A stretch of 64,000 nucleotides of DNA, taken from NCBI RefSeq assembly GCF_001704275.1, contig NZ_CP011533.1:1798001-1862000 (forward strand), given 5' to 3'. The notes under the pieces are model-generated. The model did not search any database. It was not told where the DNA came from and worked only from the letters and a program-made list of their open reading frames with translations. A program made the position numbers and the translations under genes. The DNA is from Streptomyces noursei ATCC 11455. GTDB lineage: Bacteria > Actinomycetota > Actinomycetes > Streptomycetales > Streptomycetaceae. This document shows positions 29,174 to 34,907 of this stretch, piece after piece (position 1 is the first letter of the stretch; each line of letters begins with the position of its first letter).

Positions 29174-30142
29174 ATGTTCACCGACCTTCCCCTGGACGAA
29201 CTGCGCCGCTACCGCCCTCCCCTGCCCGAGCCGCCCGGCTTCGACGCGTTCTGGCGACGCACGGTGGACGAGGCCCGGGCCCATGACCTCGCCCCCCGGT
29301 TCACCGCGGCCGACACCGGCCTGACCCAGTTGCACACCGACGACGTGGAGTTCGCCGGATTCGGCGGGCACCGGATCCGCGGCTGGTTCCTGCACCCGCG
29401 GACGGCCACCGGACCGCTGCCGTGCGTGGTGCAGTACCTCGGCTACGGCGGCGGCCGGCTGCTGCCGCACGACTGGCTGCTGTGGCCGGCCGCCGGCTAC
29501 GCCACGCTGGTCATGGACTCCCGCGGCCAGAGCGGCCCCAACCGGCCCGGCGACACCCCCGACCCGGTGGGCGCCACACACCCGGGCGTACCGGGCAAGC
29601 TGACCCAGGGCCTGCTCGACCCCGACACCTACTACTACCGACGGCTGTTCACCGACGCCGTACGGGCGGTGGACACGGCCCGCGGGCACCCCGCGGTGGA
29701 CGCCGAGCGGATCGTGGTCGCCGGCCACAGCCAGGGCGGCGCCCTCGCGCTGGCCATGACCGGGCTCGTCCCGGGGCTGGCGGGCGCGCTGATCGACGCG
29801 CCGTTCCTGACCCACATCCGGCGCGCCCTCGACGTCACCGACCAGGGGCCGTACGGCGAGCTGGCCCGCCACTTCGCCGGCCGGCGCGACGACATCGACT
29901 CCGCGCTGCACACCCTCGACCACTTCGACGGCCTGAACTTCGCGGCCCGCGCCACCGCCCCGGCGCTCTTCGGCACCGCGCTGCGCGACGAAATCGTCCC
30001 GCCGTCCACCGGGTTCGCCGCCCATCACCACTACGCGGGCGACAAGCGGCTGGAGGTGTGGCGGTTCAACGCGCACGAGAGCGGCGGGGGCGCCCAGCGG
30101 ACCGCGGAGATCCGCTTCCTGCGCGAGCTGTTCGGCGGCTGA
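29174..30142 (+). CDS. Acetylxylan esterase (CE7/AXE1 family)
   Basis: A 322-residue alpha/beta-hydrolase that removes acetyl groups from xylo-oligosaccharides or related sugars. The CE7 nucleophile motif GHSQGGALAL (about residue 182), YRRLFTDAVRAVD, the catalytic Asp region LRDEIVPPST and the C-terminal His (FNAHESGGG) are visible. There is no signal peptide, so it would act on imported oligosaccharides in the cytosol, as CE7 enzymes usually do. GGAGG precedes the ATG. The xylulokinase gene begins 152 bases on, and together they suggest xylan-derived sugar use. Confidence 0.88.
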   Translation: MFTDLPLDELRRYRPPLPEPPGFDAFWRRTVDEARAHDLAPRFTAADTGLTQLHTDDVEFAGFGGHRIRGWFLHPRTATGPLPCVVQYLGYGGGRLLPHDWLLWPAAGYATLVMDSRGQSGPNRPGDTPDPVGATHPGVPGKLTQGLLDPDTYYYRRLFTDAVRAVDTARGHPAVDAERIVVAGHSQGGALALAMTGLVPGLAGALIDAPFLTHIRRALDVTDQGPYGELARHFAGRRDDIDSALHTLDHFDGLNFAARATAPALFGTALRDEIVPPSTGFAAHHHYAGDKRLEVWRFNAHESGGGAQRTAEIRFLRELFGG

Positions 30143-30294
30143 TCCGCACCGGTCGGCGGCGGCCCGCGCGTGTCGTCCACAGGCCACCCGCGCCCCGCGG
30201 CACGCGGATTACGATGCGGCTGCGGACCGGGGTCCAGAGCGGCCGGGAGCCCCGGGGCAGGGCCTGGCCACCGGCCGCCGAGGGAGAGTGCTCG

Positions 30295-31725
30295 ATGGGC
30301 GCACAGTCGGCCGGACCGCTGGTCGTCGGGGTGGACAGCTCCACGCAGTCCACCAAGACGCTGGTCGTGGACGCGGAGACCGGCGAGGTGCTGGCCCGGG
30401 GCCAGGCACCGCACACGGTCGGCGGCGGCCCCGGCAAGGAGAGCGACCCCCGGCAGTGGTGGCGGGCACTGGGCGAGGCACTGGCCCAGTGCGGACCCGC
30501 CGCGCGACAGGCGTCCGCGATCTCCGTCGCCGGTCAGCAGCACGGGCTGGTCACCCTGGACGCGGCCGGGGAGCCGGTCCGCCCGGCGCTGCTGTGGAAC
30601 GACGTCCGGCCCGCCCGGGAGAGCGCGCGGCTGATCGCGGAGGGCGGCGGCCCCGAGGCGTGGGCGGAGCGGACCGGAAGCGTGCCGGGCCCGGCGTTCA
30701 CGGTCGCCAAGTGGGCCTGGCTGTGCGCTCACGAGCCGGCCGCGGCGGCCGCCACCGCCGCCGTCCGGCTGCCGCACGACTACCTCGTCCAGCGGCTGAC
30801 GGGCCAGGCGGTCACCGACCGCGGCGACGCCTCGGGCACCGGCTGGTGGGCGGGGTCCACGGAGGCGTACGACCCGGAGGTCCTGGACCGGGTCGGACTG
30901 AGCCCCTCGATGCTGCCGCGGGTCGCGCTCCCCGGCGAGGCGGCGGGCACCGTGCGGACCGATGAACTCCACCTGCCGCACGGCGCGTTGGTGGCCGCCG
31001 GGACGGGCGACAACATGGCGGCGGCGCTCGGCCTGGGCCTGCGTCCCGGCCAGCCGGTGCTGAGCCTTGGTACCTCCGGCACGGTCTACGCGGTGACCAC
31101 CCGCCGGCCCGCCGACCCGACCGGCACCGTCGCCGGCTTCGCCGACGCCCGCGGCGACTGGCTGCCGCTGGCCTGCACACTCAACTGCACGCTCGCCGTG
31201 GACCGGGTGGCGGCGCTGCTCGGCCGCGACCGGGAGGCCGTCGAGCCCGGCGGCGACGCCGTGCTGCTGCCCTTCCTGGACGGCGAGCGGACGCCGAACC
31301 TCCCGCGCGCCACCGGCCTGCTGCACGGCCTGCGCCACGACACCACGGCCGGCCAGCTGCTCCAAGCCGCCTACGACGGCGCGGTGTTCGCACTGCTGCG
31401 GGCGCTGGACCAGGTGTCGGGGCCGGAGACCGCGCCCGGCACCCCGCTGCTGCTGATCGGCGGCGGGGCCCGGGGCCGCGCCTGGCGGGAGACCGTGCGG
31501 CGGCTGTCGGGCCGCCCGGTGGTGGTGCCCGAGGCGGGCGAGCTGGCCGCGCTCGGAGCGGCGGCCCAGGCTGCCGGGCTGCTGCTGGGCGAGGATCCGG
31601 CGGCGGTGGCGCGCCGTTGGGGCACGGCCCGGGGTGCGGAGCACTCGGCGCGGGAGCGGGACGACGCCGCCTGGGAGCGGCTGACGGACACGCTGACCGA
31701 GGGCGCGGCACTGCTCGGCGGCTGA
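30295..31725 (+). CDS. xylB: Xylulokinase (FGGY family), probable encapsulin cargo
   Basis: A 476-residue FGGY kinase that phosphorylates D-xylulose to xylulose 5-phosphate. Landmarks are VGVDSSTQSTKTLVVD (ATP-domain start), ISVAGQQHGLVTLD, WNDVRPARES, TGDNMAAALGLG and LIGGGARGRAWRE. GGGAG lies 8 bases before the ATG at 30295. The frame stays open upstream, and an ATG at 30214 would add 27 mostly polar residues, conceivably a cargo-loading tail; it has no good ribosome site. No xylose isomerase gene is nearby. The two family 2B encapsulin genes directly downstream make this a xylulokinase-type encapsulin locus; xylulokinases are among the described cargo classes of that family. Confidence 0.9.
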   Translation: MGAQSAGPLVVGVDSSTQSTKTLVVDAETGEVLARGQAPHTVGGGPGKESDPRQWWRALGEALAQCGPAARQASAISVAGQQHGLVTLDAAGEPVRPALLWNDVRPARESARLIAEGGGPEAWAERTGSVPGPAFTVAKWAWLCAHEPAAAAATAAVRLPHDYLVQRLTGQAVTDRGDASGTGWWAGSTEAYDPEVLDRVGLSPSMLPRVALPGEAAGTVRTDELHLPHGALVAAGTGDNMAAALGLGLRPGQPVLSLGTSGTVYAVTTRRPADPTGTVAGFADARGDWLPLACTLNCTLAVDRVAALLGRDREAVEPGGDAVLLPFLDGERTPNLPRATGLLHGLRHDTTAGQLLQAAYDGAVFALLRALDQVSGPETAPGTPLLLIGGGARGRAWRETVRRLSGRPVVVPEAGELAALGAAAQAAGLLLGEDPAAVARRWGTARGAEHSARERDDAAWERLTDTLTEGAALLGG

Positions 31726-31826
31726 CCGCACCTGCCGTCGAGAATCGCCCCGGCACACTTTGCCCAACACCGAAAGATCTAAACCCTTTCCACGGGGAGT
31801 ATTTTCCATGCCACCCCATCGAGCGA

Positions 31827-33348: not shown

Positions 33349-33437
33349 GCGGAAATCCCGCGGCGGCGACTACCGCACCGCGCGGACCGGTAGCGCCTCC
33401 CGCCACGCCCTTCTCCCTTCTTTCCCGCGCATTTCCC

Positions 33438-33459
33438 GGAATTCTGAGCACCGAATTCC
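33438..33459. promoter_or_regulatory. Inverted repeat between the two encapsulin genes
   Basis: GGAATTC and GAATTCC are exact complementary arms with an 8-base spacer, 33 bases before the second shell gene. It could be an operator or an mRNA hairpin that sets the ratio of the two shell proteins. Confidence 0.45.
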
Positions 33460-33491
33460 TACGCACCGATCGGAACAGGTGACCTCCCGCC

Positions 33492-34907
33492 ATGACCACA
33501 TCCGTGGATCCCACGTCCGGCCCGCAGACCGACGGCGCCGAGCAGCTCCGGTCCAGCCTGGGCACCGCGGCCGCCCGCAATCTGGCGACCACGACCAAGA
33601 CCCCGCCGCAGATGCAGGGCATCTCCTCGCGGTGGCTGCTGCGGATCCTGCCCTGGACGCACGTCTCCGGCGGTACGTACCGCGTCAACCGGCGCCTGAC
33701 CCACACCCTCGGTGACGGCGAGGTGGAGTTCATCACCGAGGGCGCCGAAGTCCGGGTCATTCCCCAGGAGTTGCGCGAACTGGCGCCGCTGCGCGGCTTC
33801 ACCGACGACCCCACGCTCCAGGAGTTGGCCGGACGCTTCGCCCAGCGGGAGGTCGCCCCCGGTGACGTCCTCGTCGAGCGCGGTACACCGACCGACCAGG
33901 TCGTCCTGATCGCCCACGGCAAGTTCGAACGCATCGGCGCCGGCAAGTACGGCGACGAGACGGTGACCGCGGTGCTCGCCGGCGGTGACGCGGCCGGCGA
34001 CGCGGCACTGCTGGCCCCCGACGCCGCATGGGAGTTCACCCTTCGCGCGGCCACCCGAGGCACCGTCCTCACCCTGTCCCGTGCCGATTACGAGGAGGTG
34101 CTGGGCCGTTCGGCGCCACTGCGCGAGCACATCGAGAGCTTCCGCACGGCGCTCGTCCCGGCGCAGAACAAGCACGGCGAGGCCGCCATCGAGCTGGCCG
34201 CGGGACACGTCGGCGAGCCGGCGCTGCCGGGCACCTTCGTGGACTACGAGCGGTCGCCCCGAGAGTACGAACTCAGCGTCGCGCAGACCGTGTTGAAGAT
34301 CCACTCACGGGTCGCCGACCTCTACAACGACCCGATGAACCAGCTGGACCAGCAGCTGCGACTGACCGTCGAGGCGCTGCGCGAGCGCCAGGAACACGAG
34401 ATGGTCAACAACCGCGAGTTCGGGCTGCTGCACAACGCCGACCTCAAGCAGCGCATCCACACCCGCAGCGGCCCGCCCACCCCCGACGACCTGGACGAGC
34501 TGATCTCCCGGCGCCGCAAGACGCAGTTCCTGCTGGCGCACCCGCGGACCATCGCGGCCATCGGCCGGGAGTGGAACGCCCGCGGGATCTACCCGGCGAC
34601 CGCGGAGATCGACGGGACGCCGGTGCGCGCCTGGCGCGGCATCCCGCTGCTGCCCTGCAACAAGATCCCGATCAACCCGGACCAGACCAGCTCGATCCTC
34701 GCCATGCGGGTCGGCGAGGAGAACCAGGGCGTGGTCGGGCTCCACCAGACCGGCATCCCGGACGAGTACCGGCCGGGCCTGTCGGTGCGGTTCATGGGCA
34801 TCAACGACCAGGCCGTCATCAATTACCTGGTGAGCGCCTACTACTCGGCGGCGGTGCTGGTGCCGGACGCACTGGGCATCCTGGAGGACGTCGAGATCGG
34901 ACACTGA
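33492..34907 (+). CDS. Family 2B encapsulin shell protein 2, with cyclic-nucleotide-binding-like insertion
   Basis: A 471-residue paralogue of the preceding gene, similar along its whole length: [56 protein letters not shown] and the same last five residues, VEIGH. Differences concentrate in the first 25 residues, in the inserted domain (about 100-215; [13 protein letters not shown] at the cassette) and around residues 335-345 (ISRRRKTQ against LATVWKDP). The 143-base gap suggests a duplicated gene kept for a second shell role. A weak AGGTGA-type site lies 13-18 bases before the ATG. Mixed shells of two subunits are plausible. Confidence 0.9.

Follow-up and report, generated by a model that had tools for sequence, protein, structure and literature searches.

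In a 64 kb stretch of the Streptomyces noursei ATCC 11455 genome, referred to here as the window, a xylulokinase gene adjoins a pair of encapsulin shell genes (positions 29174-34907). The following genes and features lie at the locus.

29174..30142, + strand: acetyl xylan esterase, AXE1 family (PF05448, 315.6 bits)
30295..31725, + strand: xylulokinase XylB (XK), 476 aa (TIGR01312 XylB, 445.3 bits, cut-off 380.25)
31763..31864, + strand: conserved region upstream of Enc1 (alignment A1, 15 loci)
31936..33348, + strand: Enc1, Family 2B encapsulin shell, motif 1 TVWK (NF041163, 750.2 bits; PDB 9bje_A, E 2.4e-256)
33492..34907, + strand: Enc2, Family 2B encapsulin shell, motif 1 RRRK (NF041163, 770.3 bits; PDB 9bix_A, E 3.3e-265)
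35001..35888, + strand: N-acetylmuramoyl-L-alanine amidase, right-hand flank (PF01510, 121 bits)

Profile searches agreed with the original prediction of a one-strand array, with the esterase, xylulokinase, Enc1 and Enc2 genes all on the + strand. The start of the XK gene was taken as 30295, the program-listed open reading frame already opening at 29422; 210 bp separate the end of XK from Enc1, and the Enc1 and Enc2 genes are 143 bp apart. Locus comparisons were made on the best 80 of 277 loci by similarity to Enc1, a non-random set of 36 Streptomyces and 44 other loci, in which only one shell was seen in the stretch at 3 of the 36 and 4 of the 44. One locus labelled Streptosporangium in its record (L033) has shells that group with those of Streptomyces and was counted as Streptomyces for that reason. 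Unless stated otherwise, locus counts below refer to these best 80 of 277, and 22 of them (L006-L026 and L078) form the XK clade. The esterase, kept in 18 of those 22 (one of the four misses lying at a contig end), is a neighbour outside the shell system.

Enc1 and Enc2 passed the NF041163 'family 2B encapsulin' model well above its cut-off of 400 bits, confirming their predicted shell identity, and matched the SrpI-type HK97 shell domain PF19307 (443.7 and 466.2 bits), with a cNMP-binding-like domain (PF00027) inserted inside the shell chain at residues 117-203 and 119-205, respectively. Two shell genes within 10 kb, carrying the diagnostic motifs TVWK and RRRK as compared with the available text of PMC12407261, place them as a two-component Family 2B system; the S. 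noursei genome holds five Family 2 shells in total. Judged by sequence, Enc1 and Enc2 are orthologues of the solved Streptomyces lydicus pair Sl-Enc1/Sl-Enc2 (PMC12407261; PDB 9bje and 9bix, tied to that paper by motifs and not by stated accession), which they match in near full-length alignment, diagnostic motifs and published XK operon type. According to the portion of that paper available, the S. lydicus relatives self-assemble into icosahedral shells and co-assemble into mixed ones, and the Enc2 shell has two-fold pores of 14 by 60 angstrom that the CBDs cover partly; because of these pores, size is no obvious barrier to ATP crossing. The view that such compartments lacked experimental characterization thus falls for the shells, which have been solved by cryo-EM, and stands for the cargo: the class is already known, and the same portion of PMC12407261 leaves its cargo open, whereas our analysis of S. 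noursei argues against XK.

The region upstream of Enc1 contains long invariant blocks across the 15 loci of alignment A1, whichever gene precedes Enc1 (XK, xylR or esterase), and may be a putative promoter/operator of Enc1's own. Of the 22 XK-clade loci (best 80 of 277), 13 have a perfect TTTCCNNGGAAA palindrome, of which the window holds a degenerate copy at about 31786-31799; a scan for sigma-70 consensus sequences detected no promoter in front of Enc1. We rejected an operator common to shell and cyclase, the Enc1 palindrome being absent upstream of 8 cyclase genes (from 15 loci), one of which (L135) is a copy beside a shell.

Filing the locus as a Family 2B two-shell 'XK' system was correct, as it matches the class published in PMC8346489 and PMC12407261 as far as these are available; the accessible part of PMC8346489 reports XK enriched in 124 Streptomyces systems, all of them two-shell. 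The further step, to the kinase as probable cargo, failed when adjacency of kinase and shells was checked in relatives: 21 of 36 Streptomyces loci have XK no more than 2 kb from the shells, and none of the 44 others do (best 80 of 277). Genomes gave the same picture of kinase and shells not travelling together. From 199 genomes we picked 80 of Streptomyces, comprising 26 with adjacent shell pairs and 54 others (50 with one Family 2 shell match or none; G022, G043 and G049 with two far apart; and G118 with two weak matches whose places are not listed). An XK orthologue was found in 29 of the 54 without the pair, one of them without any Family 2 shell match, and was missing at E 1e-160 from 4 of the 26 pair-bearing genomes.

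The kinase instead has the surroundings of a xylose locus. Divergent xylA (TIGR02631) and a downstream ROK-family xylR are still beside XK in 9 of 21 XK-shell loci (best 80 of 277), other Streptomyces retain the order xylA-xylB-xylR-amidase without a shell, and at 5 of 20 XK loci from shell-less places the amidase comes 120-360 bp after xylR. The window XK is orthologous to the xylB of this locus in shell-less genomes; the S. noursei window differs in that tblastn with one relative each found no xylA or xylR in its 64 kb at E 0.001, the genome's XylA lying away from it at 9.47 Mb. Compared with XKs without shells, those beside shells have no consistent terminal extension. A scan for the cargo motif, begun from near the GVDSS motif and then repeated on whole frames, gave 0 of 51 in XK coding parts and 2 of 50 in stop-to-stop frames, both upstream of the start codon. 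On the independent occurrence of XK and shells, the lack of motif or extension and the canonical xylB context, we rejected XK as cargo; it is an ordinary XylB of the xylose locus, and is predicted to be a bystander.

Related shells keep different company. At 43 of the 44 non-Streptomyces loci (best 80 of 277) a terpenoid enzyme lies no more than 5 kb away, with a geosmin-synthase-like cyclase at 29 and a polyprenyl synthase at 33; the cargo motif was found in 28 of the 29 geosmin-synthase-like loci, against 1 of 29 in a reversed-sequence control. The 36 Streptomyces loci of the set have no polyprenyl synthase beside them, and the neighbour at L005 is a cysteine desulfurase. In one Streptomyces pair belonging to the window's shell group (L120), a motif-bearing two-domain cyclase, just 49% identical to the S. 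noursei one described below, sits between Enc1 and Enc2. Enc1 and Enc2 are kin of shells adjoining two-domain geosmin-synthase-like cyclases. In the shell tree used for grouping two long branches meet, and a length/motif filter omitted 5 Streptomyces pair-group and 9 non-Streptomyces shells from it. A shuffle control comprised 500 shuffles, scored on every fourth shell.

The original prediction had reasoned from the lack of a nearby terpene cyclase to the kinase. The absence itself holds, since a geosmin-synthase-like and two single-domain cyclase queries had no tblastn match anywhere in the 64 kb at E 0.001, nor did polyprenyl synthase or cysteine desulfurase queries (one relative each, same threshold); the step to the kinase presumes an adjacent cargo gene. 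A blunt motif scan of the flanking stretches found no tagged protein around XK-type loci. The same scan gave nothing wherever a two-domain cyclase was lacking. Three of these loci, L068, L072 and L080, have 2-MIB-synthase-like cyclases, and because the scan missed these its silence says little.

A candidate cargo lies elsewhere in the genome.

G000:C1:4533671-4535989, - strand: geosmin-synthase-like two-domain cyclase, 772 aa (two PF19086 stretches, tail GPTGLGTSSAR)

Aligned almost end to end with NF041168 'family 2 encapsulin cargo protein terpene cyclase', this cyclase scored 1191.5 bits, just under the cut-off of 1200. The labels geosmin-synthase-like and 2-MIB-synthase-like are given here from architecture and neighbours, the matching models being NF041168 and NF041167. 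S. noursei holds a two-domain cyclase with a GPTGLGTSAAR-type motif, as do the Family 2B GS-like systems (PMC8346489, as available; NF041168), which have the same shell family and in which related shells adjoin motif-bearing two-domain cyclases. It differs from them in placement: the gene is 2.7 Mb from Enc1/Enc2 and not in cis, so that loading would have to occur in trans. A DNA motif pattern had 3 matches in the S. noursei genome, all terpene cyclases: two of these are accompanied by a shell gene of their own, and the two-domain cyclase alone is without one nearby. Overall, matches to this pattern did not exceed the reversed control (3 versus 2 in this genome; 56 versus 62 in 26 genomes); a tighter pattern gave 4 versus 0, with peptidase-like proteins accounting for two of the 4, and another gave 1 versus 2. 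Two of four GPTGLGT sites in the genome fall in proteins judged secreted-peptidase-like by sequence only and were set aside.

A geosmin-synthase-like cyclase is present in 78 of the 80 sampled Streptomyces. Its C-terminal tag was found in 25 of 26 pair-bearing genomes versus 29 of 49 without the pair (Fisher p 0.0004, uncorrected for descent). These counts leave out five of 80 cyclase rows, of which two are second copies and three are truncated or broken, and take G132, whose contig stops within the motif, as tagged by manual assignment. On the tree, tag and pair each change 4 times and the independent-pairs p is 1, with too few pairs. Allowing for shared ancestry, the tail within Streptomyces does not follow the pair, and we rejected an effect of the pair on whether the cyclase keeps its tail. 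One genome (G034) has the shell pair without a recognisable tail tag, and at L062 and in G049 a cyclase sits beside a shell yet is without the motif or the tail tag.

Taking the shell kinship together with the orphan cyclase, we consider it moderately probable that Enc1/Enc2 form a terpene-cyclase shell loaded in trans, with XK as a bystander. The geosmin-synthase-like cyclase would be brought in from its gene 2.7 Mb away through the GPTGLGTSSAR tail, the motif acting as the loading signal that PMC8346489, in the text available, proposes. The cyclase would be packaged, and taken up by Enc1/Enc2 and not by another of the genome's shells, some of which could take it as well. The motif may also work by resembling the shell's own N-terminal arm, where the shell consensus S-L-[GSD]-T-x-A-A-R can be set against the cargo tail P-T-G-L-G-T-S-A-A-R. 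More tentatively, and with somewhat less confidence than for S. noursei itself, we suggest that the published 'xylulokinase' two-component class as a whole might be misassigned and consist of geosmin-synthase shells whose trans cargo enters by a tail imitating that arm. The literature searched, whose coverage stops short of subscription papers and outside preprints, yielded no proposal of trans loading of geosmin synthase and nothing naming both encapsulin and xylulokinase.

It is unlikely, in our estimate, that the pair packages some other enzyme or enzymes in trans (polyprenyl synthase, other cyclases or an untagged protein), leaving the geosmin-synthase-like cyclase to another shell or to none. 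In its favour, polyprenyl synthase is near 33 of 44 related loci, the S. noursei genome has six polyprenyl synthetase genes, and a system with two shell types might accommodate two cargos, as suggested in the available part of PMC12407261; against this, polyprenyl synthase is beside none of the 36 Streptomyces loci, and among the three motif matches the two-domain cyclase alone is without a nearby shell. Less likely again is that XK is cargo after all, the shell concentrating the kinase or controlling pentose flux, and the kinase being loaded through an untagged surface. Besides the enrichment published for the two-shell systems, this gains from the closeness of XK to the pair, no more than 2 kb at 21 of 22 XK-clade loci (best 80 of 277) and kept even after loss of xylA and xylR. 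The amidase and an opposite-side NAGPA-family gene are, however, found in all 22 of the same loci, and therefore XK is retained no better than unrelated flanks; its independence from the shells, its lack of a consistent extension or motif and its absence from the stretches examined at the 44 non-Streptomyces loci weigh the same way. An orphan shell without enzyme cargo in this lineage, vestigial or put to other use (storage, CBD signalling), would fit the empty motif scan around XK-type loci and is improbable, since both shells in 22 of 22 XK-clade loci (coverage at least 0.91; best 80 of 277) and the upstream region conserved in 15 aligned loci argue for selection on function.

The encapsulin family to which XK systems belong, as one named cargo class, is the most abundant one. 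Should XK prove a bystander, studies of pentose metabolism in these compartments would be built on a misreading of the gene order around them, a warning that neighbourhood alone can misassign encapsulin cargo where a shell adjoins an unrelated conserved operon. The geosmin-synthase-like cyclase offers a concrete alternative candidate, with a testable rule for cargo loading from a distant gene. Its NCBIfam family is named for an encapsulin cargo terpene cyclase, and its product would be geosmin. Geosmin is the earthy smell of soil.

Streptomyces griseus EshA is reportedly a Family 2B 2-MIB synthase encapsulin with a single shell protein and a cis cargo that carries an N-terminal cargo-loading domain, and we take PDB 9bhu to be its shell. 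It differs from the S. noursei two-shell pair in having a single shell protein with cis cargo. The S. noursei genome, too, has a shell with a 2-MIB-synthase-like cyclase and a methyltransferase next to it.

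Esterase, xylulokinase (XK) and two shell genes on one strand, as the original prediction had them, were all confirmed in place, and both shell proteins passed the Family 2B encapsulin model.

29174–30142, + strand, acetyl xylan esterase
30295–31725, + strand, xylulokinase
31936–33348, + strand, Enc1 shell (Family 2B model 750 bits, cut-off 400)
33492–34907, + strand, Enc2 shell (Family 2B model 770 bits, cut-off 400)

A profile search placed an inserted cNMP-binding-like domain in Enc1 and Enc2 alike. The nearest solved structures, aligned over nearly the full length, were 9bje for Enc1 and 9bix for Enc2; their chains carry TVWK with AVDFHGHSLP and RRRK with AELHGTDVR, respectively, which are the motifs given for Streptomyces lydicus Enc1 and Enc2 in PMC12407261. 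The locus belongs to a known class, of which it is a well-formed example, and is closely related to a solved system. The same paper reports mixed shells formed by co-assembly of the S. lydicus pair, seen by cryo-EM. The genome (9.8 Mb, one contig) holds five Family 2 shells, namely the pair and three singles, which adjoin a 2-MIB-synthase-like cyclase, a second single-domain cyclase and a cysteine desulfurase. By Enc1, the nearest named relative among the best 80 of 277 related loci was Streptomyces noursei A-2-1 (98%).

In the literature, xylulose kinases are listed as a Family 2B cargo class, with 124 Streptomyces systems and two shells in every one, and are noted not to show the disordered stretches of other cargos consistently (PMC8346489); the native cargo of XK systems is described as not yet determined (PMC12407261). 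The expectation that the kinase is the likely cargo of the Enc1/Enc2 shell was not supported here, with five lines against it: neighbours, identity as xylB, shell-less loci, independent occurrence, and lack of an extension or motif. Among the best 80 of 277 loci related to Enc1 (36 Streptomyces, 44 others), 21 of the 36 Streptomyces loci had XK no more than 2 kb from the shells (23 had it anywhere in the stretch examined), against none of the 44 others. Nine of the 21 XK–shell loci still had a divergent xylA (TIGR02631, 698 bits; cut-off 447) and a downstream ROK-family xylR, identified by its ROK domain. The window XK is an ordinary xylB. Neither xylA nor xylR was found in the 64 kb window; the XylA of the genome is encoded apart from xylB at 9.47 Mb (G000:C1:9469480–9470745, equivalent to L105:8480–9745; TIGR02631, 719 bits), close to a chromosome end, with genes around it that by eye resemble transposases.

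No shell genes were found at 20 XK loci fetched from shell-less places, which had xylA in 16 cases and a downstream xylR in 14; in five, xylR was followed after 120–360 bp by the same amidase as in the window, an arrangement that is the window-type locus minus its shells. Orthologues of XK (E ≤1e-160, identity ≥71%) occurred in 51 of 80 sampled Streptomyces genomes: 22 of 26 with the pair and 29 of 54 counted as without it, these 54 including one (G118) with two weak Family 2 shell matches whose places are not listed. One genome (G007) had the orthologue and no Family 2 shell match, four (G017, G034, G058 and G071) had the pair and no orthologue at E 1e-160, and in two (G142 and G086) XK and pair shared a contig >80 kb apart. 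Comparison of shell-adjacent XKs with XKs elsewhere revealed no consistent extension at either end. The cargo motif (GPTGLGTSAAR type) was found in none of the 51 XK coding parts; matches in 2 of 50 whole open frames were both ahead of the start codon. XK was retained in 21 of the 22 XK-clade loci, even after loss of xylA and xylR, but the amidase and a NAGPA-family gene on the far side were present in all 22, so this retention is no more than ordinary gene-order conservation in close relatives. In the Enc2 shell the two-fold pores measure 14 by 60 Å (PMC12407261), so size is no obvious barrier for ATP or pentose phosphates.

The 210 bp 5′ of Enc1 contained long invariant blocks in 15 aligned loci (the window and 14 of 22 clade relatives), whichever gene precedes: XK (8), xylR (6) or esterase (1). 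A 12-base palindrome, TTTCCNNGGAAA, about 150 bp 5′ of Enc1, was perfect in 13 of the 22 XK-clade loci (L006–L008, L011, L012, L014–L020 and L026), was absent 5′ of the first shell from all other loci scanned, and is likely to be an operator.

31786–31799, degenerate copy of the palindrome in the window

The palindrome and the conservation of the blocks whichever gene precedes point to a promoter belonging to the shells themselves; a consensus scan found none 5′ of Enc1, so this promoter is a predicted one.

Terpenoid enzymes were encoded no more than 5 kb from the shells in 43 of the 44 non-Streptomyces loci among the best 80 of 277: 29 had a two-domain cyclase of geosmin-synthase-like type and 33 had a polyprenyl synthase. 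The stretch of the single exception, L067, starts 20 bases ahead of the first shell gene. The motif was present on the cyclase in 28 of these 29 loci (reversed control 1/29, shuffled 0/29) and was not found on that of L062. In a FastTree shell tree, in which two long branches meet and from which 14 shells were excluded by a length and motif filter, the Streptomyces pair shells included, with XK near, far or absent, formed one group (97 rows, support 91). Within this group, one Streptomyces locus (L120) had a motif-bearing two-domain cyclase between Enc1 and Enc2, 49% to the cyclase of the window's genome and scoring 1001.6 bits, under the cut-off, against NF041168, a model for terpene cyclase cargo of Family 2 encapsulins. 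Three further genomes (G046, G102 and G181) had single Enc2-like shells (L108, L113 and L114; 71–73% to window Enc2), near which the cargo queries used gave no match; their two-domain cyclase tail was PAGLGTAAAR.

In the window's genome, a degenerate DNA pattern for the motif gave three matches (reversed pattern, two): two single-domain cyclases, both of which have a shell gene of their own next to them, and a two-domain cyclase at 4.53 Mb, with no shell gene found within the 12 kb examined. A tighter pattern gave four (control, none): besides the two-domain cyclase, it matched one of the single-domain cyclases and two peptidase-like proteins. The two-domain cyclase (772 aa, two terpene synthase domains) scored 1191.5 bits against NF041168, 8.5 bits below cut-off. 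Pattern matches across the 26 pair-bearing genomes numbered 56, not above control (62), and 27 of them, in 21 genomes, were in such cyclase genes.

We consider a terpene-cyclase shell loaded in trans a better reading than a kinase compartment, with about an even chance of being correct. Its support comes from gene neighbourhoods in other genera and from a process of elimination within the window's genome. A motif at the cyclase C-terminus (tail tag) was present in 25 of 26 pair-bearing genomes versus 29 of 49 others (Fisher p 0.0004), a comparison in which 18 of 21 untagged tails fall in one clade, tag and pair each change four times on the tree, and an independent-pairs test cannot reach significance. 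Nearly all Streptomyces sampled (196 of 199) had at least one Family 2 shell, so other shells may also be served by the tag. In G034, which has the pair, no tail tag could be recognised; in G049, where the cyclase adjoins a single shell, the tag was not found. Given the clade-bound pattern, the other shells and these two genomes, the tail does not point specifically to this pair. The 18-member clade of Streptomyces two-domain cyclases without a C-terminal tag (for example, L155, L159 and L163–L170) had tails such as RAHGFLPDRPPALP, and some of its members keep a sequence resembling the motif in the interdomain linker. No motif was present anywhere in 8 of 80 Streptomyces two-domain cyclase rows.

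For loading in trans, Enc1 and Enc2 would form mixed shells, as seen for S. lydicus, and the cyclase motif would be bound inside the shell during assembly. The consensus of the shell N-terminal arm, which starts S-L-[GSD] across 189 shells, resembles GPTGLGTSAAR.

Enc1 residues 20–34, N-terminal arm
Enc2 residues 22–36, N-terminal arm

The best match to GLGTSAAR was this arm in 182 of the 189 shells, and 0 of 500 shuffles, scored on every fourth shell, did as well. This resemblance suggests, as a new and unproven idea, that cargo tails may imitate the shell arm. In the solved S. lydicus pair, 23 residues of the arm, which may include this stretch, are ordered in Enc1 only (PMC12407261).

Further along the window, 39306–42620 encodes a 1104-aa protein in which a lysyl-phosphatidylglycerol synthase domain is fused to a class II lysyl-tRNA synthetase; by eye, genes of similar size and sequence follow the pair at two loci with XK absent (L027 and L118). 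Two more FGGY-type sugar kinases lie in tandem on the minus strand at 44390–47495 (XylB is the best model, with 193 and 239 bits against a cut-off of 380). After them come a gene resembling a transporter and a divergent DeoR-like regulator, both labelled from sequence only; the set is probably a separate sugar or polyol operon.
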